DNA of 64,000 nucleotides from Kaistia terrae (lineage in GTDB: Bacteria; Pseudomonadota; Alphaproteobacteria; Rhizobiales; Kaistiaceae): the NCBI RefSeq assembly GCF_026344005.1, contig NZ_JAPKNH010000002.1:682001-746000 (forward strand), given 5' to 3'. The notes under the pieces were generated by a model that was given only the letters and a program-made list of their open reading frames with translations, was not told the DNA's origin and made no database searches. Position 1 is the first letter of the stretch. Every line of letters starts with the position of its first letter. Shown here in pieces: positions 38,274 through 56,996 of this stretch. The position numbers and the translations under genes are program-made.

Positions 38274-38430
38274 GCAGGCAGTTCCAGAAACGGGGGGACG
38301 GCCGGAAAGCCATTCCGGCGCAAACGAGGCGCTTCCTGTCTAGTCCTGCTCTCCCGCGACGACAACGGCTTGTGTCGCCCGAGCGCAATGTCGTGGCGCA
38401 CGTGACCTTCCGGCCACAATGTCGCGGCCA

Positions 38431-38468
38431 AAAGAAAAGGGCGCAGCCTTGGCCGCGCCCTTTCAAAA
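38431..38468 (-). terminator. Terminator of the GPR-like gene
   Basis: On the minus strand GGGCGCGGCC-AAG-GCTGCGCCC is followed by TTTTCTTTT, 20 bases past the stop of the giant gene. Confidence 0.85.
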
Positions 38469-38487
38469 GTCCCGCTATCGGACCGGA

Positions 38488-41400
38488 TCAGTCGAAGCGG
38501 CCGCTTGCGTGGGCGAGCATCGTGTAGACCTTGCCGGTATCGGAGACGAGGTAGGCGTTGCTGGCTGCCGGATCCTGGCCGCTGCGCTTCACTTCCTTCA
38601 GCAGGCGCTCGAAATCGCCGACATAGCGATCAACCGCTGCCTTGAAATCTGCCTCACCCTGATACTTGCGACGGATCTCGTCGAAGGTCTGCTGGCCCGC
38701 CAGCGTGTAGAGACGGCGGGTGAACACGTTCTTCTCGCCGCGGTGATGACGCTCCCACAGCTCAGCCGCCGCGCGCGGGTCAATCGCCCGGGCAATGTCC
38801 GTCGAGAGGTTGCCGAGCGACGCGCCTTCCGTGGCAGCCGGAGCCGCCGTCTCGCGACGTTCGACCGGCGTTGCGCTGTGGTCTTCGTCGCGCGAGGCGC
38901 GGCGCAGCAGATCCGAGACCCAGCCGCGCGGCTCGGCCTGATCGGCTGCCGGCGCCGGCTTGGCTTCGGCGCGGGCCGGAGCCTGGCGTGCCGGAGCGGG
39001 GGCCTGAACCACCGGACGAGCGGCCTCGACGACCTGCGCCGGGCGAGCCGGGGCAGGGCGCTGGGCTACCGGAGCTGCGACGCGGACCGGCTCGGGGGCT
39101 GCCTGGCGAACGGCCTGGGCTGCGACCGGCTGCGACCGGGCGAAGGCAGGCGCTGCTTCGGCAACGCGACCGCGCGGCGCCGGGTGCGGCGTGCCGGGGA
39201 CCGAGACGTCGAGCGACTTGCCATGCTTGCCGACGATGTCCGAAAGCTCGGAGAGAGCCTTCAGCTGGTCGGTCACGACACGGCGCATGGCATCGGCGCT
39301 TTCGCGCGTCTCAGCCGGGAGCTCGAGGACGCCACGCTTCAGTTCGGTGCGGGTGACTTCGAGGTCCTGCTGCATCTCCTTGGCGGCAGAACGCATCTCG
39401 TCGGTCGCGGCCGAGAACTGCTTGGTCGCCTGGGCGACAACGGTCGCCATGTCGTCCATCAGCGCGCGGTTGGCTTCGCGGACCACATTGGCGGCCTTGA
39501 GGCTTTCGCTGCTTGCGGTCGCCTGCATGCCTTCGAGGTTTTCGAGCACGCCCTTGGCGGCGCTCTCGCTCGAACGGGCGAGCATCTTGGCGACTTCGGC
39601 TGCGCGTTCCTCGGCATCCTTCAGCGAGGTGCTGACGGTTTCCGTGAAGGTGCGCATCATGCCGTCCAGCTCGGTGGAGCGGGCGGACAGGCTCTGGGCG
39701 AGCTGGTCGAGGGCGACGCGGCGCTCCTCGATCGAGCCTTCGATCTCGCTATTGGCCGAGGTCAGGGTGCGGGCTGCGAGGCTGAGCGAGCGGCCCTGGT
39801 CCTCGAAGCGGCCCGCAATGGCGCCGACATTCTCCAGCACGTCCTTCGATACGTCGCGCAGCATCTCGACCTGCGAAGCGAGCAGGGTCGAAGAGTTCTG
39901 CGTGCCGCCGATGGCTTGCTCGATCGCCTGGGCGAATTCGCCGGTCCGAGTCGCGAGACCCGTCTCGATCTGGTTCAGGTTTTCGGTCGTGCGGGTCAGC
40001 AGCGCGTTGAGCATCTCGTTCGACTGCGCCAGGCGGTCGACGATGCCCGCCACGTCGGTGCGAAGCCGCTCATTGGTGGAGCCGAAGCTGCGCGACACGG
40101 TCTCGCCGCTGTCGAGCAGGGCGCGGGCAGCCTCGTCGGTGCGCGAAAGCACCATCGAGACGATCTCGGAGCCCTTCGACGACAGCAGATCGACGATGGT
40201 GTCGCCGGCGTTGGCGACGCTGCTGGTCAGGTCGGTGCCGCGCTGGTCGATGGCCGCGACGAGGCGGTTGCCTTCGCCGTCGAGCAGGTTGGCCAGTTCG
40301 GCGCTGCGGGTTTCGAGAACTGCGTTGAAGGCGCGCGTCCGCTCTTCGAGAGCGTTCGCCGTGTTCATCGCACGACCGCCGAGGCTCTGCTCGACTTCGA
40401 GGGAAACCCGCGAAATCTGCTCGGCTGCTTCAGCGGAAACCCGCGACAGATGGCCGGCTGCGTCGGCGCTCGACGTCGACAGCAGTTCGACGGTGGACGA
40501 GGCGACCTGGTTCAGGGCCTCGGACGCCTGGTTGGCCGAACGTGTGACGGTTTCGGAAACGTTGAGTGCCGAACGGGCGAGGTTCCGCGAGGCGTCGTCC
40601 AGCGACTGGGTCAGGGCCTGGCTTGCATCGGTCGCGGACTGCGTGAAGAGCAGCGAGGCGTCGGCTGCCGACTGGGTCAGGTTCTGCGAGGCATCGCTCG
40701 CCGAGGCACGCAGTGCGCCGCTGGTCTCGTTCGAGGCGGCGACAAGCTGCTCGGTCGCCTGTGAAAGCGAGCCGACGATCTGTTCGGCGGCACGGACCGA
40801 TTCACGGCCGAGCGTCGAGCTGATGTCGCTGAGGCGGGTCGAGAGGATGTTATCCATCTGGACTGCGCGGGCGTCAAAGTTGCTTGTTGCCTCGACGGCC
40901 CGTTCGCCCAGCGTGTCGTTGATCGACTGCCAGCGCTCGGAAAGCATGTCCGAGAGCGCCTGCGTCCGGTCGGAGAGACGGTTGGTCACGTCCGACAGGC
41001 GGTCGTCGATGATCGTGCTGATCTCAGCCTGACCGTTCGAGAATGCCTCGGCGATGTGGCGCGTGCGCTCGATCAGGGTCTGGTTGATCTGCATCGAGCG
41101 GGCGTCGAGCGCTTCGTCGATACGCCGGGTGTTGCTGTCGAGGGTCTCCGCGACGGCGCCGATCTTGGCTTCGATCGCGTCGCCGAAACCTTCGAGGCGG
41201 TCGGCCAGCGTCGTGTCCATCAGATTGGCGCGGTCGGCAAAGCGGGTCACCAGTTCCGGACCACGGACCTCGATGATGTCGCGCAGCGCCGCGAAGCGCT
41301 CGTCCAGGCCGGTTGCGATGGCCAGGCCGCGATCGTTGATCAGATCGCCGAAGCGGCCCGACGTGTCGACGATCCGGTCGTGAACCGACAAGGCGCGGTT

Positions 41401-44400
41401 TTCGATTTCACCGGCAAGGTCGGCGCCCGAAACCAGGATGCGCTCATGCACGGCGTTGGCACGGCCCTCGATCTCGCTGGCGAGGCTGGCGCCCGAGGCG
41501 GCGATGCGCTCATGCGCCTGGGTCGCCTGGTTCTCGATTTCGCCGACGATATGCGAGCCCGAGGTGACGATGCGCTCATGCACGGCATTGGCGCGGCCTT
41601 CGATCTCGTTGGCGAGGTCGGAGCCGGACGTCAGGATGCGGTCATGCGCGGTGCGCGCCTGGCTGGCGATCTCTTCCGACAAGGCGGAGCCGGACTGCGA
41701 GATCTGCTGATGCGCGAGCAGGGCGTGGCTGGCGATCTGTTCAACGAGGGTCGAGCCCGAGCTGAGGATCTCCTCATGGGCGGCGCGTGCCTGGCTGGTC
41801 AGTTCGCCAATCAGCGTGTTGCCGGAGGACAGGAACTGGCTATGCGAGCTGAGGGCCTGGCTGGCGATCTGGTCCGCGAGGCCGGCGCCCGATTCGACGA
41901 TCTGTTCATGCACGAGACCCGCTTGGCCGGCGATGTCGCCGATCAGGGCCGATCCGGCGGCGACGAGACGATCGTGCACGACGCCGGTGCGGTTCTCGAT
42001 CTGGTCGATCAGGTCCGAGCCGGCGGCGATCACGCGCTGATGCACGGTCGAAGCGCGGTTCTCGATCTCGTCGGCGAGCTCGGTTCCGGATGCGACGATG
42101 GACTGGCGCGCGGTCTCGGCGCGGCTGGCGATCTCGTTGGACAGTTCGGTGCCCGAGTCGACGATACGCCGATGCACATTGGCGCCGCGGGTCTCGATCT
42201 CGTTGGCGATCTCGCTGCCCGAGGTGAGGATGCGCTTGTGCAGGGTGTCGGCGCGATTGGCGAACTCGTCGGCGAGGTCCGTGCCCGAGCTGACGATGCG
42301 CTGCTGCGCATCGAGGCCACGGCGCTCGATTTCGCCAGAGATGTCGGTGCCGGACGCGATGATGCTCTGGTGAACGGCGTCGGCGCGATCGGTGATGTCC
42401 TGCGCCAGTTCGGTGCCGGAGGTGAGGATGCGCTCATGCACGGCCTGAGCGCGGCTCTCGATCTCGTCTGCCAGTTCGGTGCCCGAAGCGACGATGCGCT
42501 TGTGAACGGCTTCGGCGCGGCTTTCGATGTCGCCGGCCAGATTGACGCCGGACGACAGGATGCGTGCATGCGCGGCCTGCGCCTGGGTCTCGATTTCACC
42601 GACCAGGTTGCTGCCCGAGGTCAGGATGCGCTCATGGGCGGCGTCGGCGCGGCGTTCGATCTCGTTGGCGAGGTCGGTGCCCGAGGCGACGATGCGCTGA
42701 TGCACGGCGCCGGCACGGCTTTCGATTTCGCTGGCGAGATCACTGCCGGACGACAGGAACTGCTGGTGGGTGCTATCGGCGCGATTGGCGATCTCATCGG
42801 CAAAACGGGTGCCCGAAGCGACGATGCGATCGTGGATGTCGGTGCCGCGGCTCTCGATCGTCGAGGCGATCTCGTTGCCGGAATGCAGGATGCGCTGATG
42901 CACGGCCGAACCGCGCGTCTCGATCGCATCGGCCAGCTGCTGGCTCGATTCGATGATCAGGTCGTAAACGGCGGTGCCACGGCTCTCCATGGTGTCGGAG
43001 ATCTGCTTGCCGGATTCGACGATCCGCTCATGCAATAGGCCGGCGCGCGAGGCGATCGTCTCGGAAATCTCGTTGCCCGAGGCGATGATCGTCTCGTTGA
43101 CCTTGAGGCCGCGGACGGCGATCGCCTTGGCGACTTCGCCGCCGACGGTGGCGAGGCGCTCGGTCAGCTCTGCCGAACGGGCGTCGAAGGTTTCGTTCAC
43201 GGCGTTGGAGGCGCCGTCGATGGTGTCGCGCAGCGAGGCGGTGCGGGACTCGATCAGCGTGGCCATGATGTCGCCGGCGGCGGTCAGCCGGTCGGCCAGT
43301 CCGCTGCCGTCGATGGCAATCGCGTCCTGGATCCGGTCGCCGGTCAGCGCCAGACGGTCGGCGAGGTCGCCGCCGCGTGCCGAGATGGTGTCGGCGATGC
43401 GGTTGCCGGTCTCGTCCAGCTTCTCGTTGATCTCCTGGCCGCGCAGGGCAAGGTCGACGATCAGGCTGTCGGCATTGGACTTCAGGGCGGCGTTCACTTC
43501 CCGCGTATGCAGCGAAATCGTCTCGGCGACCTGGTTGCCGGTGACGGAGATCGAACGGGTCATGTCGGCGGTGCGGCGGTCGAGGCCTTCGGTCAGCTCT
43601 TCCGTCACGCGGGCCAGGGTCTCGTTGACCTCGCGGCCACGCTCGGCAACCGTTTCGGCCATGGCGCGGCCGGTGGTCTCGAGCGTCTCGTTGATGTCGG
43701 CGCTGCGCGACAGCAGCACGTCCGTCACTTCGCCGCTGGTGCGCGAGAAGGATTCGGTCACGTCGGTCGCAGCACTGGTCAGGCGGCTGACCAGGTCATC
43801 GCCGCGCACCGACAGCTTGTTGATCATGTCATCGCCGGCGGCGCCAAGCGCCTGGGTGATGTTTTCGCCGCGCCCGGCCAGGGCCTGGGTGATGCGGTCG
43901 CCGGAGCCGATGATGTTGGAGGCGATCTGGTCGCTGGCTTCGCCAAGATCCTTCGACAGCGATTCCTGCGCCGAAACGATCGATGAACGGACGCGCTCGG
44001 AGTTGATGACGATCGCCTCGCGCTGGTTGGCGAGATCGTCGATCAGGCCGCGCATGCGGACTTCATTATCGGAATAGGAGCGTTCGAGCGCCGCGACTTC
44101 GTTGTGGACGAGAAGCTCAAGCTCGCTGGCGCGGGCAAGCGCCCGCTCGATGCCGTCGCCCATGGCGGCGACTTCGCGGCGGATGGCCTGGCTGACCGTC
44201 ACGACCGCTTCGGAAGCAGCGTCCTCGGGCTCGGACAGGCGAGCGGCGACGTCGGAGATCGAGCGCGCAGCGATGCGCATTTCCTGCGCGCGGGCAACCA
44301 TGATGGCGATGCCCCAGACGATGCCGACCGGCAGCACGAGGGCAAGCGCGAGGTTGGTGAACTGGGCCGTGCCGACAGCGCTATCGCCCGAGAACAGGCT

Positions 44401-44856
44401 GATATCGGCTGACGTCACATAGGCTGCGATGGCGCCAATCCAGGCGACCGAAAGCAGCGCGGCGACGGGATAGATCATGCGCGACGGACGGCGGGCCGGC
44501 AGCGAGGCGCCGCCGACGCGACGGTCGTCATTGGCGGGCATGCGGCTGTTGCGGCCGGACTGGCGGCCGCGCGGCGAGGCGCTGGATTCTTCGGTACGCG
44601 TGGGAGCGGGCAGGGCGCGGTTCGCCGGCGATGCTGGCGCATCGACCTTGCGGGGCGCATCGGCCCGACGCGGCGCGTCACCCTTGCGGGGCGCTTCCTG
44701 AAGCCGGGGCGGCTCTAGCCGTCGATCTCGCGGGACACCGCCTGCGGGTGGCCGTGGATTGGCCGCCGCGGGAGCGTCGAAATCGATCCGGAGCGCCTCC
44801 TCAACGGCGGTGAGCGCTGCATCCGCCGGGTCCTTGGACTTCGGGGTATTCGCCAT
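38488..44856 (-). CDS. gpr: Growth-pole-ring-like giant coiled-coil membrane protein (GPR/RgsE type)
   Basis: A 2122-residue protein. A polar Pro/Arg-rich cytoplasmic head (residues 1-125) precedes two membrane segments (about 127-149 and 165-187), then about 1700 residues of helical repeats. From about residue 600 to 1150 it is built of some 25 copies of a 22-residue unit of the form ESRAxAVHxRIVASGTxLAx, as in apolipoprotein-type amphipathic helices. The last 95 residues (ELWERHHRGEKNVFTRRLYT, then YVGDFERLLKEV) are a conserved globular domain. Length, topology and repeats match Agrobacterium GPR and Sinorhizobium RgsE, which form a ring at the growing pole. A perfect CtrA site lies 253 bp upstream. 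It is monocistronic. Confidence 0.85.
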   Translation of the reverse strand: MANTPKSKDPADAALTAVEEALRIDFDAPAAANPRPPAGGVPRDRRLEPPRLQEAPRKGDAPRRADAPRKVDAPASPANRALPAPTRTEESSASPRGRQSGRNSRMPANDDRRVGGASLPARRPSRMIYPVAALLSVAWIGAIAAYVTSADISLFSGDSAVGTAQFTNLALALVLPVGIVWGIAIMVARAQEMRIAARSISDVAARLSEPEDAASEAVVTVSQAIRREVAAMGDGIERALARASELELLVHNEVAALERSYSDNEVRMRGLIDDLANQREAIVINSERVRSSIVSAQESLSKDLGEASDQIASNIIGSGDRITQALAGRGENITQALGAAGDDMINKLSVRGDDLVSRLTSAATDVTESFSRTSGEVTDVLLSRSADINETLETTGRAMAETVAERGREVNETLARVTEELTEGLDRRTADMTRSISVTGNQVAETISLHTREVNAALKSNADSLIVDLALRGQEINEKLDETGNRIADTISARGGDLADRLALTGDRIQDAIAIDGSGLADRLTAAGDIMATLIESRTASLRDTIDGASNAVNETFDARSAELTERLATVGGEVAKAIAVRGLKVNETIIASGNEISETIASRAGLLHERIVESGKQISDTMESRGTAVYDLIIESSQQLADAIETRGSAVHQRILHSGNEIASTIESRGTDIHDRIVASGTRFADEIANRADSTHQQFLSSGSDLASEIESRAGAVHQRIVASGTDLANEIERRADAAHERILTSGSNLVGEIETQAQAAHARILSSGVNLAGDIESRAEAVHKRIVASGTELADEIESRAQAVHERILTSGTELAQDITDRADAVHQSIIASGTDISGEIERRGLDAQQRIVSSGTDLADEFANRADTLHKRILTSGSEIANEIETRGANVHRRIVDSGTELSNEIASRAETARQSIVASGTELADEIENRASTVHQRVIAAGSDLIDQIENRTGVVHDRLVAAGSALIGDIAGQAGLVHEQIVESGAGLADQIASQALSSHSQFLSSGNTLIGELTSQARAAHEEILSSGSTLVEQIASHALLAHQQISQSGSALSEEIASQARTAHDRILTSGSDLANEIEGRANAVHERIVTSGSHIVGEIENQATQAHERIAASGASLASEIEGRANAVHERILVSGADLAGEIENRALSVHDRIVDTSGRFGDLINDRGLAIATGLDERFAALRDIIEVRGPELVTRFADRANLMDTTLADRLEGFGDAIEAKIGAVAETLDSNTRRIDEALDARSMQINQTLIERTRHIAEAFSNGQAEISTIIDDRLSDVTNRLSDRTQALSDMLSERWQSINDTLGERAVEATSNFDARAVQMDNILSTRLSDISSTLGRESVRAAEQIVGSLSQATEQLVAASNETSGALRASASDASQNLTQSAADASLLFTQSATDASQALTQSLDDASRNLARSALNVSETVTRSANQASEALNQVASSTVELLSTSSADAAGHLSRVSAEAAEQISRVSLEVEQSLGGRAMNTANALEERTRAFNAVLETRSAELANLLDGEGNRLVAAIDQRGTDLTSSVANAGDTIVDLLSSKGSEIVSMVLSRTDEAARALLDSGETVSRSFGSTNERLRTDVAGIVDRLAQSNEMLNALLTRTTENLNQIETGLATRTGEFAQAIEQAIGGTQNSSTLLASQVEMLRDVSKDVLENVGAIAGRFEDQGRSLSLAARTLTSANSEIEGSIEERRVALDQLAQSLSARSTELDGMMRTFTETVSTSLKDAEERAAEVAKMLARSSESAAKGVLENLEGMQATASSESLKAANVVREANRALMDDMATVVAQATKQFSAATDEMRSAAKEMQQDLEVTRTELKRGVLELPAETRESADAMRRVVTDQLKALSELSDIVGKHGKSLDVSVPGTPHPAPRGRVAEAAPAFARSQPVAAQAVRQAAPEPVRVAAPVAQRPAPARPAQVVEAARPVVQAPAPARQAPARAEAKPAPAADQAEPRGWVSDLLRRASRDEDHSATPVERRETAAPAATEGASLGNLSTDIARAIDPRAAAELWERHHRGEKNVFTRRLYTLAGQQTFDEIRRKYQGEADFKAAVDRYVGDFERLLKEVKRSGQDPAASNAYLVSDTGKVYTMLAHASGRFD
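41400..43060 (-). repeat. 66-bp coding tandem repeats within the GPR-like gene
   Basis: About 25 diverged tandem 66-bp units encode the 22-residue helical repeats. Recurrent DNA words on the plus strand are GATGCGCTCATGC, CGGCGCGGCTTTCGAT and CAGTTCGGTGCCCGA. The in-register divergence shows protein-level selection rather than recent DNA amplification. Confidence 0.8.
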
Positions 44857-45626: not shown

Positions 45627-45947
45627 ATGGCCAAGATCACTTATATTGCCTTCGATGGCACGCCCTTCGAGATTGAAGCCCGCGACGGCTCGACCGTGAT
45701 GGAAAATGCCGTGCGCAACGCCGTGCCGGGCATCGAGGCGGAGTGCGGCGGCGCCTGCGCCTGCGCCACCTGCCACGTCTATGTCGACGACGCATGGGTC
45801 GCGATCACCGGTGAGCCGGAAGCGATGGAAGAGGACATGCTAGACTTTGCGCAGGACGTGCAGCCGAACTCGCGGCTTTCCTGCCAGATCCGCGTCAAGC
45901 CCGAGCTGGATGGCCTGATCGTCCGCATCCCGGAGCGCCAGGGCTGA
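45627..45947 (+). CDS. [2Fe-2S] ferredoxin (adrenodoxin/FdxB type)
   Basis: A 106-residue electron carrier. The cluster ligands are visible as [15 protein letters not shown] plus a distal cysteine in RLSCQIRV, the adrenodoxin-type spacing used by ferredoxins that serve P450s or Fe-S assembly. The next gene, 120 bp downstream on the same strand, encodes a ferredoxin-NADP reductase, so the two could form one electron-transfer chain. Start ATG 45627 is the only sensible one. Confidence 0.92.
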
Positions 45948-46018: not shown

Positions 46019-47102
<1,084 letters not shown>

Positions 47103-47916: not shown

Positions 47917-48936
47917 TCACTCCGGCCTCTTGCCCGCCTTGCCGCCGATCTTCGTCAGCTCGGCGATGAAGTCCGCCATCGCCGGCGGCTTCTCCGCGAT
48001 GAAGGGCAAGGGGCGGCAGACGTCGATGGCGGCGATGCCGACGCGCGCCGTGAGAATGCCGTTGATTACGCCTTCGCCGAGCCGCGCCGACAGTCGGGCC
48101 GCGATGCCGTGGCCGAGGATCTGCTGGACCAGCGAGTCGCCCGCCGCCATGCCGCCGGTAACGGCGAGATGAGCGATGACGGTGCGCGCCAGCCGCAGGA
48201 AGCCGAGCGTGCCGGGCCTGCCGCCATAGAGCTGGCCGAGCTGGCGGATCAGGCGAAGCGCCGTCACCAGTACGAACAAGAGATCGACCAGCGCGCGGGG
48301 CGAGATTGCCGTCACCAGCGTGACCCGCTTGGCAGCCGACAGCACCAGGGTCTGCGCGGCGATATCGAGCGGGCGCAGCAGTTCATGCTCCGAGAGGCCG
48401 ATCAGGTCGCGTCCGTCGATGATCTCGGCCGCGTGCCGCTCCAACGCCGCGCGGCCATGTGCCGTGTCCGGCCGCTCGCCATAGAGCGCCGTCAGGTCGC
48501 GCACCGAGGCGCGGGCGGCAACGCGGTCGTCGCGGCGGGCGGCGTCGTCGGCCGCCTCGCGGATCGACGTGATGCGACGAAGTCGGAGCAGTCCGCCGAT
48601 CTCGCGCGTGGCAAGCGCGATCAGCGCGACCAGGCCGACTGACGCGACCGCGACCGCGAACCAGCCGAGCCATTCGGCCCGCTGGAACAGGTCGCGGATC
48701 AACTGGTCGACGGCAAGGCCAATGCCCAGCGACAGCAGGATGCCGAGAGCCGAGACGAGGATGTTGGCCCAGCGCGGCCCGCGCCGAGGTTTTGGCACGG
48801 GGACGGGGAGGTCGAACTCTTCCGGTTCGGCGATCACCATCGGCCGGTCGCCGGGGCGATGGGCGATGTCCGGGTCGTCGACGACACGGATGCTGTCGAG
48901 GCGGAAGGCGGTTGGCTTGCGCGGGGTATCGCTCAT
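47917..48936 (-). CDS. ycjF: YcjF family (TIGR01620/DUF697) membrane protein
   Basis: A 339-residue inner-membrane protein with two N-terminal helices (ANILVSALGILLSLGIGLAV and WFAVAVASVGLVALIALA) and a DUF697 region with further hydrophobic helices (residues about 210-300). The family is unassigned biochemically but is nearly always paired with ycjX, as here. Its start overlaps the ycjX stop by 4 bp. Confidence 0.88.
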   Translation of the reverse strand: MSDTPRKPTAFRLDSIRVVDDPDIAHRPGDRPMVIAEPEEFDLPVPVPKPRRGPRWANILVSALGILLSLGIGLAVDQLIRDLFQRAEWLGWFAVAVASVGLVALIALATREIGGLLRLRRITSIREAADDAARRDDRVAARASVRDLTALYGERPDTAHGRAALERHAAEIIDGRDLIGLSEHELLRPLDIAAQTLVLSAAKRVTLVTAISPRALVDLLFVLVTALRLIRQLGQLYGGRPGTLGFLRLARTVIAHLAVTGGMAAGDSLVQQILGHGIAARLSARLGEGVINGILTARVGIAAIDVCRPLPFIAEKPPAMADFIAELTKIGGKAGKRPE

Positions 48937-50396
48937 GACAACCGGTCTCCGATCAGGAATTCCAGCGCGCGGTCAAGCCGGATATGCGGCAGCGACAGGG
49001 TGATGCCCTCGGCCGTCCGTTCCAGCGCCGGCGGGCGGAAGCGCACGAATCGTAGCTCTGTCGGGCTCAGCTCAGAAGTTGAGTCAGGTCCTTGCAGGAC
49101 TGAATCAGGATTGTTCGGCAAGTCGCCGGGAAAGAACGCGATTTCGCTTTTGCCGTCGAAGGTCTCGCCATCGATCGTCTCGCCGGCAAGCGGCGTTCCG
49201 ATGATCGACGGCAACTTCTGCGAGTCCTGTACGACGACGCCTTCGCGCGTGGCGCGGACGGAGGCGAGCGCCGCCACCTCGACGCGTGCACCCGCCGCCG
49301 AAGCCCGCTCGATCGCCGGCGCCAGCAGCCGCGAGAGAATGGCTTCCAGGCGATCGTGGTCGGCGTGGTGCAGATGGTCGGCCTTGGTCGCGCCGATCAG
49401 GATGCGGTCGATGCGTCGCGTCATCAGCCCGCCCAGCCACGAGCCGGAGCCGGGGCGGTAGCAGCCGAGGATCTCGGTCAGCGCGGCGCCGAGATCCGCG
49501 ACAGCCGCGGGGCCGGCGTTCAGCGCGTTGAGCGCATCGACCAGCACGATCTGCCGGTCGAGCCGGGCGAAGTGATCGCGGAAGAACGGCTTTACCACCA
49601 CCGACTTATACGCCTCGTAGCGCCGCGCCATCATCCGGCCGAGCGAGCCGGCAGGGGCGTTTACAGCGGTGTCGGGCAGGGGGGAGAAGGTCAGGGCAGG
49701 CGACCCCTCGAGATCGCCCGGCATGAGAAAGCGACCGGGCGGCAAGGTCGACATGGCGTTCTCGTCGGCCCGGCATGCGCGCAGATAATCGGTGAAGAGC
49801 GCCGCCAGTTCGCGCGCCACCGCCTCGTCCTCGGGCGCAGTGGGATCGATGGTTTCGAGCCGCGCCAGCCACGGCGCGGCCGCGATCCGCCGCGCAGGGC
49901 CGCGCGCCATCTCGACAGCCTCGCGCGACCAGGTGTCAAAATCCTTGGCGAGCAGCGGCAGGTCGAGCAGCCATTCGCCGGGGTAGTCGACAATGTCGAG
50001 GTTCAGCTTGCCCGGCCCGAAGCGCTGCTTGAAATAGGACGCCGATTCATAGGCGATGGTGAGCCGGAGCTCGCTGATCCGATAGGTCGAATCCGGCCAG
50101 GTTCGCTGGTCGACGAGGGCGCGGACATGATCCTCGTAATCGAAGCGGGGCACGTCGTCGTCGGGCTGCGGCTCCAGCCTGGCGCCGGTGACGCGACCGG
50201 TCGAATAGGAGCGGAACAGCGGAAGCCGGCCGCCATGGACGAGATTATGCACCAGCGCCGTGATGAAAACCGTCTTGCCGGCCCTCGCCAGCCCGGTGAC
50301 GCCGAGGCGCACGGTCGGTGATACGAGATCCGCTGCGCGATCCCCCAGCGTGACAAGGGCGAGGCGCGCTTCGTCGGTCAGCGTGGTTAGCTTCAA
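48933..50396 (-). CDS. ycjX: YcjX family GTPase-like protein
   Basis: A 487-residue P-loop protein of the DUF463 family, seen as GVTGLARAGKTVFITALVHN near the N-terminus, with VDYPGEWLLDLPLLAKDFDTW (switch region) and LIGATKADHLHH (nucleotide base specificity). Some members are induced by stress. I chose TTG 50396 because AGGAACGGGA stands just upstream and residues before it look non-coding (arginine-rich); ATG 50462 is the alternative. Confidence 0.88.
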   Translation of the reverse strand: MKLTTLTDEARLALVTLGDRAADLVSPTVRLGVTGLARAGKTVFITALVHNLVHGGRLPLFRSYSTGRVTGARLEPQPDDDVPRFDYEDHVRALVDQRTWPDSTYRISELRLTIAYESASYFKQRFGPGKLNLDIVDYPGEWLLDLPLLAKDFDTWSREAVEMARGPARRIAAAPWLARLETIDPTAPEDEAVARELAALFTDYLRACRADENAMSTLPPGRFLMPGDLEGSPALTFSPLPDTAVNAPAGSLGRMMARRYEAYKSVVVKPFFRDHFARLDRQIVLVDALNALNAGPAAVADLGAALTEILGCYRPGSGSWLGGLMTRRIDRILIGATKADHLHHADHDRLEAILSRLLAPAIERASAAGARVEVAALASVRATREGVVVQDSQKLPSIIGTPLAGETIDGETFDGKSEIAFFPGDLPNNPDSVLQGPDSTSELSPTELRFVRFRPPALERTAEGITLSLPHIRLDRALEFLIGDRLS

Positions 50397-50491
50397 AGGT
50401 CCCGTTCCTGGCCGGCGGAGTGCGGCCGCATGGTGTGGCCGAAGAGCCGGCCGCGTCCCCATGTAGGCACGGCGGCGGGGCCGCAAAAGAT

Positions 50492-51037
50492 CTATTCGTC
50501 GTCGGCGATCGGGTCGGAGCCGACGAGCTCCAGCTCTCGCGGACGGAAGAAGGCGACGATCCGGCCTGTCCTGGGGCGCAACTCCGACCATTTGTGGATG
50601 TCGAAATCGATGACGGCGAGGCCGCCGGTCGGAAACTTGTCGGAGATCTCCTCGCGCAACGCCGGATTGCCGCTGCCGATCAGTTCGATGGCCGTGTCCT
50701 GCATCGTCGGGTTATGGCCGATCAGCATGAGATGGCGGGAACTGCCGCCAAGCGCGCCGATCGTGTCGATATAGGCGTCGGCGCCGACCTCGTAGAGGCC
50801 GCGCAGGATCCGGATATCGAGATCCGTCCCGATCATCGGCATCAGCCCCATCAGCGTTTCGCGGGTGCGGCGGGCGGCGGAGCAGAGGATACGGTCGGGC
50901 GCCAGCCTGTGGGCGGCGAGATGCTCGCCGATCATCGTCGCGGCGCGTCGCCCGCGCGGCGCCAGCGGCCGGTCGAAATCGGCGAGACCGGCGACATCCC
51001 AGGCGGATTTGGCGTGGCGGAGCAGAAGGAGGCGCAT
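50492..51037 (-). CDS. SixA-type histidine phosphatase
   Basis: A 181-residue phosphohistidine phosphatase of the RHG superfamily: LLLLRHAKSAWD (catalytic RHG-like motif with His8), ADFDRPLAPRGRRAA, and IGHNPTMQD (second catalytic His). SixA removes phosphate from the HPt domain of E. coli ArcB or from the nitrogen PTS; the partner here is unknown. Confidence 0.88.
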   Translation of the reverse strand: MRLLLLRHAKSAWDVAGLADFDRPLAPRGRRAATMIGEHLAAHRLAPDRILCSAARRTRETLMGLMPMIGTDLDIRILRGLYEVGADAYIDTIGALGGSSRHLMLIGHNPTMQDTAIELIGSGNPALREEISDKFPTGGLAVIDFDIHKWSELRPRTGRIVAFFRPRELELVGSDPIADDE

Positions 51038-52578: not shown

Positions 52579-53919
52579 TCAGCTCTTGCGCGAGTTCGAG
52601 ATCTCGCCGAGCAGGCGCGCCATTTCCTTTTCCAGATCACCGACCGAAGAGGACGACTCGGAATCGGAGGGATCGTGCGGCGGGAGCGGAGCCTCGATGA
52701 AGTCCTCTGCAATCGCGACCGGGGCGTCTTCCGGCTGGGGCGATTCGACCGCCGGGGCGTGCGACCGCGGCGCTGCGCCGAACAGATGCGCGTCCTCGGT
52801 GCTGGTCGTTTCCGGTCCCAGGTCGAAGATCGGCTCGAAGCGCGCCAGGCGGTCTGCCTCGTCGTCCAATCCGGCAAACGGATCCGCTTCGGCTGCTACG
52901 GGAGGCGCTGGCGGGACGATCGGGCGGCGCGGCGAGACACGGGCAGGGTCAATCGGCGCTGTCGGGGCTACCGGCGTCTGCTGCGAACCGAGCAGCGGGC
53001 GGGGGTCATAAGGGCGAGGGCGCTGGCCGGTCGGTCGGCCCTCGATAGGCTCCATCGGACCCTGCTGTGTCGTCGGGCGCGGCACGGGAGCCGATTCCGG
53101 CGGGATCTCGGCGGTGGTGGGCGTGTGGCGCGGACGATTGCCGGAAAGGAAGCTGGGGAAGCCACGACCGGTGCGCGGCTCGGGCGCCGGGCGTTCCGGA
53201 GCAACAGGCGGGGCCGGACGCTTCGAGGCCGGCTCGAAGCTGGCTTCCGGCTCGACATCGGCCGCGAACGACGTGTCCGAGGCGCGTTCTTCGAATGCCT
53301 CGACCTCTTCGACCTCTTCGACCTGCGGCGTCGCACGGCGAGCTTGCGATTCCACTGGAGCTGAAGCCGCGATCGGCAGCGCCTCGGCAACCGGCGTCAT
53401 CTCGGAACGGCGTGGCTCCGGCTGGCGGGTGGCGATGGGTTCGACCGGCGCGGCGGGGATGCTGCGGCCACTCTGCGACGTGGAACGGGCCTGGATCGGT
53501 TCCGGGCGAGCCGGCGCGGGCTCCGGCCGGGGCGGCTCGGGGCGCTGCGCCTCAGCACGCGGCTCGTCCTGGCGCAGGGGCTCCTGGCGGATCGCCTCCA
53601 GGCGTCGGGTCTGCTGCTGGGCGCGCTGGATGCCGGGTTCGACGACGACGTCGCTCGGGCCACCGATCAGGATCAGGTGTTCGACATTATCGCGCCGAAC
53701 CAGGATGAGGCGGCGGCGCTGGTCGAGCGGCAGCGCGTCCAGGACGGCCAGGCGAGGCTGGCGTCCGCGCGCCGGTCCGGCGCCGAGGCTGCCATTGGTG
53801 AACATGCGGATCAGCCAGAAGACCAGAAGGATGACCAGGAGAACCACGACGAGCGTGATCACGAACTGGGCAATGGTCGCGCCTGTGTCGCCGAACATTG
53901 GCGCCAGATAATCGTGCAT
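52579..53919 (-). CDS. FliO-like membrane protein with long Pro/Arg-rich tail
   Basis: A 446-residue protein. One N-terminal membrane helix (IAQFVITLVVVLLVILLVFW, about residues 15-40) is followed by GRQPRLAVLDALPLDQRRRL and ILVRRDNVEHLILIGGPSDV, the FliO core. FliO helps assemble the flagellar type III export gate. The remaining 330 residues are low-complexity, rich in Pro, Arg, Glu and Ala, and are unlike short enterobacterial FliO. It sits between dksA and cckA, with no other confident flagellar gene in the window. Confidence 0.65.
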   Translation of the reverse strand: MHDYLAPMFGDTGATIAQFVITLVVVLLVILLVFWLIRMFTNGSLGAGPARGRQPRLAVLDALPLDQRRRLILVRRDNVEHLILIGGPSDVVVEPGIQRAQQQTRRLEAIRQEPLRQDEPRAEAQRPEPPRPEPAPARPEPIQARSTSQSGRSIPAAPVEPIATRQPEPRRSEMTPVAEALPIAASAPVESQARRATPQVEEVEEVEAFEERASDTSFAADVEPEASFEPASKRPAPPVAPERPAPEPRTGRGFPSFLSGNRPRHTPTTAEIPPESAPVPRPTTQQGPMEPIEGRPTGQRPRPYDPRPLLGSQQTPVAPTAPIDPARVSPRRPIVPPAPPVAAEADPFAGLDDEADRLARFEPIFDLGPETTSTEDAHLFGAAPRSHAPAVESPQPEDAPVAIAEDFIEAPLPPHDPSDSESSSSVGDLEKEMARLLGEISNSRKS

Positions 53920-54452: not shown

Positions 54453-56996
54453 ATGACCGACGACAGTAACCAGAAACCGCACCGCCGTGCGCTGGTCGAT
54501 CGGTCGGATCGTCCCGGTGGCATCGGGCTGTTGCTCGTGCTTGCCTGCTGCCTTGTCGGCGCGGCGCTTGCCTTTGCCCTGTTGCCGCCCGAGGCGGCCG
54601 AACCGTTCATCTTCGCGCTGCTCGGCCTTCTTGCCGTGGTCGGCGTCTTCACGCTGTTTGCCGCCGCCGTCGGGCTGATGCGCTTTAGCGGCAAGTCCCC
54701 GCGTGACGATCTCGGTCGCGGCTTCATCGACACGATGGCCGAAGGCCTGATCATTACGGATCGCGACAGCCGCATCCTCTATGCCAATGCCGCCTATGCC
54801 GATCTCGTGGGCGCAGACGAAAGCAAGGACGTCCGTGTCGTCGAGCGGGTCTTTTCCGGCGACCAGGCCGCCAGCGAGGCGATCTATCGTCTGTCGCAGT
54901 CGATCCGCGAGGGACGCCCGGCGGTCGAGGAAGTGCGGATGCCGAGCCCCTTGGCCGGTCCCGCCTCCGGTTCGCCGCGCTGGTATCGAATTCGCGTCCG
55001 GCCGGTCAAGGCAGCGCCGGATGACAGCCGCCTCCTGACCGCCTGGCAGGTTGCCGACGTCACGCACGATCGCGCCCAGCAGGAAACCGTCTTCCAGGAT
55101 CTGCAGCATGCGATCGATTATCTCGACCATGCGCCGGCCGGCTTCTTCTCGGCCGAACCCGATGGCCGGATCGTCTATCTCAATGCAACGCTCGCCGACT
55201 GGCTCGGAATCGACCTGACCCATTTCAAGGCGGGCGTCCTGACGCTCGGCGATATCGTGCGCGGCGACGGCGCGGCGCTGCTTTCGGTCGGTCGCGAGAA
55301 TTCGGGCGAGGCGCGGACGGAGACGATCGATCTCGATCTCGTCAAGCAGAACGGCCAGAGCCTTCCCGTCCGCCTGCTGCACCGTGTGCCCTTCGCCGGC
55401 GACGGCGCGCCGGGCGCGACGCGCACCATCGTGCTCAATCGTGGTCCCGGCGAGGAAACGTCGGAAGCGCTGCGGGCAGCCGAGGTGCGCTTTACCCGCT
55501 TCTTCAACCACACGCCGTTCGCCATCGCCTCGATCGACAAGTCGGGCCGCATCGGCCGTACCAATGCGCCGTTCGCGCGCATGTTCGGGCCGATCAAGTC
55601 GGATGGCGGCAACCGCGCCCGGCTGATCGACGTGATCGCCGAGACCGAGCGCCCGGCGCTGGAAGTGGCGCTGGAAAGCGCTGCCGGCGGTCGCAGCGAG
55701 ATATTGCCCGTCGACACCACCCTTCTCGGCCATGGCGAGCGCAGCGTGCGCTTCTACGTCACCGCCATCGACGAGGACGCCAACGACCGCGAGATCGCCA
55801 CCGTCTATGCGCTGGAGACGACCGAGCAGCGGGCGCTGGAGCTGCAATTCGCGCAGAGCCAGAAGATGCAGGCGATCGGCCAGCTCGCCGGCGGTGTCGC
55901 GCATGATTTCAACAACGTCCTGACGGCGATCATCGGCTTCTCCGATCTTCTGCTCGCCAACCATCGGCCGAGCGATCCGTCCTTCCAGGACATCATGAAC
56001 ATCAAGCAGAATGCCAATCGCGCGGCGGGGCTCGTGCGCCAGCTGCTGGCCTTCTCGCGCCGTCAGACGCTGCGCCCGCAGGTTTTGGCGATGGGCGATG
56101 TTCTCTCCGATCTCTCGATCCTGCTGGAGCGTCTGCTTGGCGAAAAGGTCAAGCTGTCGCTGGTGCATGGCCGCGACGTCTGGCCGATCAAGGCAGACCT
56201 CAATCAGTTCGAGCAGGTCGTCATCAACCTTGCCGTCAATGCGCGCGACGCGATGCCGAAGGGCGGCACGCTGACGATTCGCACGCGCAACGTGACGCCG
56301 GAAGAGGTGGCGGAGTTCACCTACAAGCCGCTGCCGCCGGCCGACTACGTGCTGATCGAAGTGACGGATACCGGCACCGGAATTCCGCCCGAAGTGCAGT
56401 CGAAGATTTTTGAGCCGTTCTTCTCGACCAAGGATGTCGGCAAGGGCACCGGCCTCGGCCTGTCGACCGTCTATGGCATCGTCAAGCAGACCGGCGCGCA
56501 TATCTTCTTCGACAGCGAGACGGATGTCGGCACGACCTTCCGCATCTTCGTGCCGCGTCATGTGCCGGCGATTTCGGCCAAGCCCGAAGTGGTTGCCGAG
56601 AAGGCGCCGGAGATCGCTGATCTCACCGGTAGCGCCAGCATCCTGCTGGTCGAGGACGAGGAAGCCGTGCGCGCCTTCGCCGCCCGCGCGCTCGCGTCTC
56701 GCGGCTATACGGTGCATGAGGCTGCTTCTGGCCTAGAGGCGCTGGAAATCATGCGCGAGACCGGCGGGACGATCGATCTCGTCGTCTCCGACGTGGTCAT
56801 GCCGGAACTCGATGGGCCTTCCCTGCTGCGGGAACTCCGCAAGGAACGACCGGGGTTGAAGATCATCTTCGTCTCCGGCTATGCCGAGGACGCTTTCGCC
56901 AAGAACCTGCCGGATGGCGAGACCTTCAACTTCCTGCCAAAGCCGTTCTCGCTCAAGCAGTTGGCGACCGCCGTGAAGGAAACGCTCGGCGAGTAA
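54453..56996 (+). CDS. cckA: Cell-cycle hybrid histidine kinase CckA
   Basis: CckA phosphorylates ChpT, and through it CtrA, to drive the alphaproteobacterial cell cycle. The 847-residue protein has two membrane helices (about 23-45 and 51-75), PAS domains at about 93-205, 222-325 and 345-455, a HisKA domain with His484 in [14 protein letters not shown], an ATPase domain ([35 protein letters not shown]) and a C-terminal receiver with Asp780 ([12 protein letters not shown]). Order and motifs match CckA of Caulobacter and Brucella. ATG 54453 is the first plausible start. Confidence 0.94.

Follow-up and report, generated by a model that had tools for sequence, protein, structure and literature searches.

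What is a protein of 2122 residues whose middle part is built of 22-residue repeats, and by which rule can such a protein become longer or shorter during evolution while its two ends stay recognizable? The question is raised by a gene of Kaistia terrae (Alphaproteobacteria, order Rhizobiales) that occupies 38488..44856 on the minus strand of the stretch of 64,000 nucleotides analyzed here (the window; contig NZ_JAPKNH010000002.1, positions 682,001 to 746,000). A preliminary description of this DNA had seen a GPR/RgsE-like protein with about 25 apolipoprotein-type repeats in residues 600-1150, flanked by irregular coiled-coil segments, and had left the strand unstated. Judging from its sequence and from those of its relatives, we think it quite probable that the protein is a GPR/RgsE orthologue serving as a membrane-tethered polar scaffold, with a rod of 11-residue units (hendecads) that evolves in steps of 11 or 22 residues. 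In what follows, the class, the order and the genus are Alphaproteobacteria, Rhizobiales and Kaistia, respectively.

A GPR/RgsE orthologue and its rod

GPR of Agrobacterium tumefaciens assembles at the growth pole into a ring of 200 nm that consists of six foci, its loss abolishes the rod shape of the cell, and internal regions as well as the C terminus are required for full function (PMC8262873). Polar localization and a role in cell shape have been published for RgsE, too (PMC7327166). The gene of the window is a single open reading frame (ORF) that begins with ATG, and both ends of its product align to members of this family. Against a coding sequence of 2089 amino acids (aa) from Sinorhizobium meliloti, whose length matches that of published RgsE (PMC7327166), the C-terminal domain shows 57% identity over 157 aa (E 9e-53) and the N-terminal region 40% over 296 aa (E 5e-44). 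Against a protein of 2120 aa from a metagenome-assembled genome (MAG) of A. tumefaciens, the values are 52% over 199 aa (E 7e-57) for the C-terminal part and 56% over 115 aa for the N-terminal part. Ends without relation to GPR/RgsE had been named in advance as what would speak against the assignment, and the alignments relate both ends to the family. Of the 150 order genomes sampled, 142 have a match to the C-terminal 199 aa (128 of the 131 good-quality ones), and so do all 14 genomes of the genus. Each order genome with the domain has one match, except for one genome with two. The genome of the window also has one: a full-length copy in 5.59 Mb, the two other match rows falling within this gene as well, but on its other strand. 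Thus, a homologous C-terminal domain, an N-terminal transmembrane pair followed by a signature, a long helical region that matches PF01442 and a single copy in a conserved place are all present, and the gene is the single GPR/RgsE orthologue of this organism and encodes a known kind of protein.

How is the protein arranged? Two helices at residues 127-190 (44287..44478, minus strand, as are all parts of the gene) are predicted from hydropathy to form a transmembrane hairpin in the inner membrane, and they are helical also in a model of the N-terminal region with a mean predicted local distance difference test score (pLDDT) of 86.2. Shortly after the second helix comes a conserved family signature, residues about 214-285 (44002..44217), which emerges from alignments of 80 and 79 sequences. 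The hendecad rod extends from residue 265 to 1597 (40066..44064), with a net charge of -87, one Pro and no Cys. It is followed by helices outside its phase (residues 1598-1880, 39217..40065), recognized from the change of phase and period and from helices in the model, by a Pro/Ala-rich linker predicted to be mostly disordered (residues 1881-2011, 38824..39216; pLDDT block means 41-66, most of them at or below 50), and by the conserved C-terminal helical domain (residues 2012-2122, 38491..38823), where block means reach 84-96 from residue 2017 on.

Within the rod, the repeat array had been described correctly. Autocorrelation detects an 11-residue periodicity at about residues 200-1650 and a strong 22-residue repeat at about 500-1300, while neither lag 11 nor lag 22 ranks first in the 200 residues at the N terminus or the 400 at the C-terminal end. 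In windows of 200 residues across residues 601-1200, lags of 22, 44 and 66 give identities of 0.37-0.56 and mean BLOSUM62 scores of 1.7-2.7, to be compared with -0.16 to -0.25 for the score as the mean of the maxima after shuffling. When the sequence is laid out in rows, 27 near-regular units at residues 573-1166 (41359..43140) share one register, close to the 25 or so described. Most of them end with Ser-Gly (Gly in the last column of 25 units, Ser in the preceding column of 24), and altogether 765 residues of the protein fall into windows with clear 22-residue repetition. At the DNA level, where units of 66 bp had been claimed, Tandem Repeats Finder detects repeats of 66, 132 and 198 bp (66-75% matches) in the segment from 41402 to 42906. 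Since the mean DNA identity from unit to unit is as low as 0.60 (0.88 for the best pair) and the longest exact repeat is only 23 bp, the array is old.

The flanks of the array, in contrast, turned out not to be irregular: the same hendecad register runs on without a slip. Residues 309-1584 (40105..43932) can be written as 58 consecutive 22-residue rows, that is 116 hendecads, with no insertion or deletion. The best hydrophobic period over residues 230-1650 is 3.666, equal to 11/3, with an amplitude of 0.48, whereas 200 shuffles, run on a coarser grid of periods, reach 0.11 at the maximum, and the hydrophobic phase hardly changes between about residue 265 and about residue 1600. All 116 hendecads have I, L, F, V or M at position 6; a hydrophobic residue occupies position 2 in 96% of them, and 97 of the 116 carry G, A or S at position 10.

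Steps of eleven and a change of register

By which steps, then, does the rod become longer or shorter? Thirteen proteins of the genus were compared in pairs, a 14th genome with an ORF of 1587 aa being left out. Of 370 gaps within the rod, 306 have a length divisible by 11 (213 by 22), while outside the rod this is true of only 16 of 959 gaps for 11; it is to be noted that the 78 pairs share ancestry, so that these counts are not independent. Another way is to measure the distance from an N-terminal motif to an anchor behind the rod, in which the repeat itself does not have to be aligned. This was done for a set of 83 order proteins, taken from 80 of the 141 matching genomes besides G000 with additions from the genus, and picked for length and spread (L070, with an ORF of 306 aa, was excluded). 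In the 57 proteins that could be measured, the anchor distance spans 222-2039 residues. Divided by 11, 28 lengths leave a remainder of 2 and 13 a remainder of 9, so that 41 of the 57 fall into two classes; among the 46 distinct lengths, these classes hold 20 and 11, i.e., 31 together. With moduli of 7-10, 12, 13, 15 and 18, the fullest class contains at most 12 of the 57. The two classes are 4 residues apart, which is a hendecad minus a heptad. In named Rhizobiaceae, 33 of 59 distinct lengths also belong to two classes modulo 11, again 4 apart. In both sets, the number of residues between the ends varies in steps, and the comparison shows a rod that keeps its 11-residue pattern and changes its length mostly in 11-residue steps with 4-residue shifts. 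The earlier suggestion that units change in number therefore stands for the comparison between species, where the 306 genus gaps speak for it. To our knowledge a ring size is on record for A. tumefaciens and for no other species, and we can only infer that the number of units would set the dimensions of a ring or rod, as had also been suggested.

Could the array be nothing but a neutral by-product, in which slippage-prone, GC-rich repeats of 66 bp drift in number and any in-frame coiled coil is tolerated? Codon usage may keep a trace of such events. Sharing of codons exceeds an array-wide shuffle only at the even lags of 44, 88 and 132 residues (0, 1 and 0 of 500 shuffles reach it), as block duplication would leave behind, but against the stricter shuffle within unit columns the excess is weak (z 2.0, 1.4 and 2.1, respectively). 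Such an excess agrees with a duplication of 132-bp blocks long ago but is no proof of it. Where 22-residue arrays can be seen, their sequence and their place vary from lineage to lineage, and unit identity goes up to 92%. Yet the register is held even where repeats are scarce, as in S. meliloti RgsE, in which an in-phase run of 1122 residues goes along with only 139 repeat residues, and steps of 11 that are not steps of 22 are frequent. We regard such neutrality as very improbable.

Is the hendecad rod common to all relatives? A profile of the C-terminal domain finds matches in 68 of 190 class genomes, and in 65 of 187 outside the order. Proteins were fetched from 60 of these 65 genomes. A transmembrane segment is predicted within the first 500 residues in 58 of the 60, and a profile of the N-terminal signature matches 43 of them at E < 1e-3, four of these away from the transmembrane segment. 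Their rods follow another register. Among the 57 that are long enough for the measurement (three are too short), the period is 25/7 in 36, 18/5 in 5 and some other value in 16, autocorrelation peaks at lag 25, and a period of 11/3 occurs in none, in contrast to 70 of the 83 order proteins and 73 of 79 from named Rhizobiaceae. All 140 proteins tested (57 of the class and 83 of the order) exceed 20 shuffles of their own. The 13 exceptions in the order include 10 short proteins (852-1202 aa); of all 13, the period is 3.62-3.66 in 11 cases and 3.56-3.57 in two. On a quick tree made from the 118 of 140 proteins with both ends recognized (35 of the 57 class ones), plus three named rows, 6 changes of the 11/3 state are counted, compared with 37.5 after shuffling. 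According to coiled-coil theory, rods of 25/7 are expected to be left-handed and those of 11/3 right-handed or straight. The C-terminal-domain relatives outside the order (L246-L305) range from 532 to 2491 aa, and they could be a basis for a new family model, as the domain has no match in Pfam. Distant homologues have been noted in Emcibacterales and Rhodospirillales (PMC7327166).

What the rod may do

The preliminary description called the repeats apolipoprotein-type. As a Pfam label this is right: PF01442 matches the protein at 2.3e-55 in 12 stretches, and PF07464 (apolipophorin-III) is barely at its cut-off. Does the label tell us about lipids? In a reading proposed for GPR, the rod would be an amphipathic belt on or around lipid, with the 22-residue units as lipid-binding helices, and the protein would sort polar lipid. 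These matches speak for the belt, and deletion of the apolipoprotein-like regions of GPR is known to harm cell shape (PMC8262873). PF01442, with a cut-off of 90 bits, gives the real sequence of residues 309-1012 a score of 157.1, and one permutation within hendecad columns still scores 134.6, while the reversed sequence scores 68.0 and a full shuffle gives no score at all. The 22.5 bits lost by the column permutation could be explained by the 22-residue order. Because a shuffle that keeps nothing but the 11-residue pattern retains most of the score, the match would mostly report 11-residue periodicity and is weak evidence for apolipoprotein descent or lipid binding. An 11-residue periodicity occurs in lipid-binding helices, too, which speaks for the belt. 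Against it, the face of large hydrophobic residues is narrow, the net charge is as negative as mentioned above, and none of 120 windows passes a lipid-binding score. A lipid belt is quite unlikely in our opinion.

A membrane-tethered scaffold accounts for the same parts in another way. At the growing pole, the transmembrane hairpin would anchor the protein in the inner membrane, and the rod would stand in the cytoplasm as a stiff, acidic, multi-stranded coiled coil. The signature and the C-terminal docking domain, the latter on its flexible linker, would recruit partners, so that the protein would gather the wall- and membrane-building machinery of the pole. Rod length would evolve mainly via gain and loss of 11- or 22-residue units, which keeps the hydrophobic core in phase, and tandem duplication of blocks of 66 or 132 bp might have produced the 22-residue arrays that can be seen, in one lineage separately from another.

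Several points have to be set against this scaffold. The AlphaFold models cover only the two ends and are single chains, so that the coiled-coil state and the number of strands are inferred. Gaps aligned inside a repeat lean toward multiples of that repeat, a bias of which the anchor distances are free; the anchor distances have their own restrictions, as the counts modulo 11 ignore phylogeny, 26 of the 83 order proteins (15 without the N-terminal motif, 5 without the C-terminal anchor, and 6 gapped) and 3 of the 80 Rhizobiaceae could not be measured, and the remaining 26 of the 59 Rhizobiaceae lengths are scattered over six further classes. Gly is a frequent residue of the rod (94 of 1333) and could form joints. 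Published deletions of GPR are mixed for a ruler: removal of A-IV-4 (263 rod residues) keeps paired foci and rod-shaped cells with somewhat narrowed diameters, while no paired foci form when A-IV-1 (346 residues) is missing, and of two cuts of about 20 residues, A-IV-1cc complements well when present alone and A-IV-4cc is severe beside the wild type (PMC8262873). About 20 residues are no multiple of 11, and the deletions do not simply obey an in-phase rule. Finally, GPR without its last 332 residues still makes paired foci (PMC8262873), so the C-terminal domain is dispensable for the ring and would recruit partners rather than build it.

How far could the rod reach? An α-helix rises by 0.15 nm per residue, and the 1333 residues of the rod in the window would amount to about 200 nm if straight. 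The agreement with the published ring diameter may be a coincidence. In the literature it is argued that the rod folds back into a compact bundle, the size of which, rather than reach, would be set by the unit number. GPR foci are reported to be 50 nm, and folding is held necessary from a length of 600 nm quoted for 1,700 helical residues (PMC8262873). The frequent Gly of the rod would suit folding as well. It is to be noted, however, that 600 nm for 1,700 residues would require a rise of about 0.35 nm for each of them, whereas at 0.15 nm the length becomes 255 nm. In addition, the fusion that forms foci has green fluorescent protein (GFP) at the N terminus, and GFP at the C terminus blocks paired foci (PMC8262873); the foci may mark only the anchored end of GPR. 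An extended rod is possible for these two reasons, and one Pro and no break of register in 1276 residues leave no obvious hairpin turn. Folding into a bundle seems to us unlikely. With about as little confidence we put forward the idea that GPR is an evolvable molecular ruler. The same anchor and C-terminal domain would carry a register peculiar to the lineage, mostly 25 = 7+7+11 outside the order and hendecads inside. In lineages that lack MreB, the hendecad rod might have grown, 11 residues at a time, to 200-300 nm and have taken over the spatial organization of wall growth, with the number of units setting the reach from the anchor or the width of the ring.

No match to MreB is found at E 1e-20 in the genome of the window, and MreB is present in 19 of 150 order genomes, compared with 169 of 190 in the class. 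When ORFs of at least 800 aa are considered, a GPR ORF of more than 1500 aa occurs in none of 16 MreB-bearing and in 83 of 114 MreB-less order genomes; counted by family, in none of 10 and in 26 of 40. The limit of 1500 aa was set after the lengths were known, the longest MreB-bearing case has 1498, and contig ends may cut ORFs. The count omits 12 shorter ORFs (2 from genomes with MreB, 10 from genomes lacking it) as well as an MreB-bearing genome that has no C-terminal-domain match. On a tree, the long state changes only four times, and in five independent pairs the length differs in none or one. With so few independent events the tree test is without power, and we make no claim that loss of MreB and lengthening of GPR are correlated.

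Surroundings, significance and known systems

What else belongs to the locus? The conserved neighbor on the upstream side of gpr is a 2Fe-2S ferredoxin at 45627..45947 on the plus strand (Fer2, 3.9e-14). It is matched in 152 of 160 homologous loci (12 of 12 in the genus, 64 of 68 in the further order and 76 of 80 in Rhizobiaceae), and 148 of the 160 have it on the strand opposite to gpr and upstream of it, with a median distance of 945 bases. An FAD/NAD(P) oxidoreductase follows at 46068-47102 (plus). Farther upstream are genes of DUF697/YcjF-like and YcjX proteins (47917-48936 and 48933-50591, both minus), a long protein with an N-terminal FliO domain (52579-53919, minus), and a PAS-histidine kinase-receiver protein (54453-56996, plus), which presumably resembles CckA. 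S. meliloti Ak57, too, has a YcjF family gene on the upstream side of rgsE, about 5.5 kb away. In the fetched flanks, YcjF occurs in 10 of 12 loci of the genus, 6 of 68 of the further order and none of 80 Rhizobiaceae, the flanks beyond the genus being perhaps too short. Two long open frames run antisense to gpr on the plus strand, 38419-40764 (781 aa) and 41056-43038 (660 aa); they are probably by-products of high GC content and the 66-bp periodicity, giving no evidence for genes. No Rfam family reaches its gathering score between 38000 and 46200, and scans for promoters and terminators gave one promoter-like site and zero terminators, nothing usable.

Searches with the protein itself left its C-terminal domain unassigned. 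Taken by itself, the domain matches nothing in Pfam at E 0.01, and a model of the C-terminal region has no clear fold match in PDB (best Foldseek E 2.0); that model also held long helices, and neither a new nor a known fold follows from this. A globin fold, with a best VIA-align Z of 4.4 and a root-mean-square deviation of 5.7 over 84 residues, is no real match, and a single NCBIfam match for the whole protein at 0.17 is to be ascribed to chance. On the side of database records, the RgsE orthologue of S. meliloti (L133:6193-12462) carries the annotation "kinesin". We take the prefix SMc to denote a chromosomal locus tag in S. meliloti. The 3.7-Mb record that contains rgsE is labelled plasmid pSymB and may be a mislabelled chromosome; the published rgsE has a chromosomal SMc tag (PMC7327166).

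How cells grow at one pole in the absence of MreB is an open problem, among the most striking parts of which is GPR. The comparison supplies a rule for the rod, a core kept in phase and a length changed mostly in 11-residue steps. It also weakens the sequence argument for lipid binding and questions the length estimate behind the folding argument. As far as the open-licence literature was searched, new at family level are the step-wise spacing of 222-2039 residues between conserved ends, the PF01442 score, most of which survives shuffling within hendecad columns, the absence of GPR ORFs above 1500 aa from the sampled MreB-bearing genomes of the order, and the difference between the 25/7 and 11/3 registers, of which no mention was found in a scan at listing level. 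Natural variants that differ so much in the spacing of fixed ends suit a test of rod length against ring size.

To which known systems can the protein be likened? By its published description, GPR of A. tumefaciens (Atu1348, 2115 aa) is like the protein of the window in having two transmembrane helices, a long helical region that matches PF01442, a Pro-rich stretch and a functional C terminus (PMC8262873). The MAG protein, which stands in for its sequence and aligns at both ends, has an anchor distance of 1319 against 1344 in the window, but only 430 residues in clear 22-residue-repeat windows, and its register slips once inside the rod. RgsE of S. meliloti (SMc00190) shares the ends, the order of parts and the hendecad rod, and differs by far fewer repeat residues at the same threshold (139 against 765) and an anchor distance shorter by 128 residues. 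We know of no membrane hairpin or such a C-terminal domain in the DivIVA/GpsB/FilP/Scy group of Gram-positive bacteria. The likeness to that group goes by description, as these are coiled-coil proteins of growth and division for which hendecads are named (PMC9858780). TipN of Caulobacter came into consideration as a possible relation of the family. For the idea of a ruler, an analogy is offered by the attachment organelle of Mycoplasma pneumoniae: in this unrelated organism and organelle, too, a coiled-coil ruler serves a polar structure of constant size (PMC8191905).

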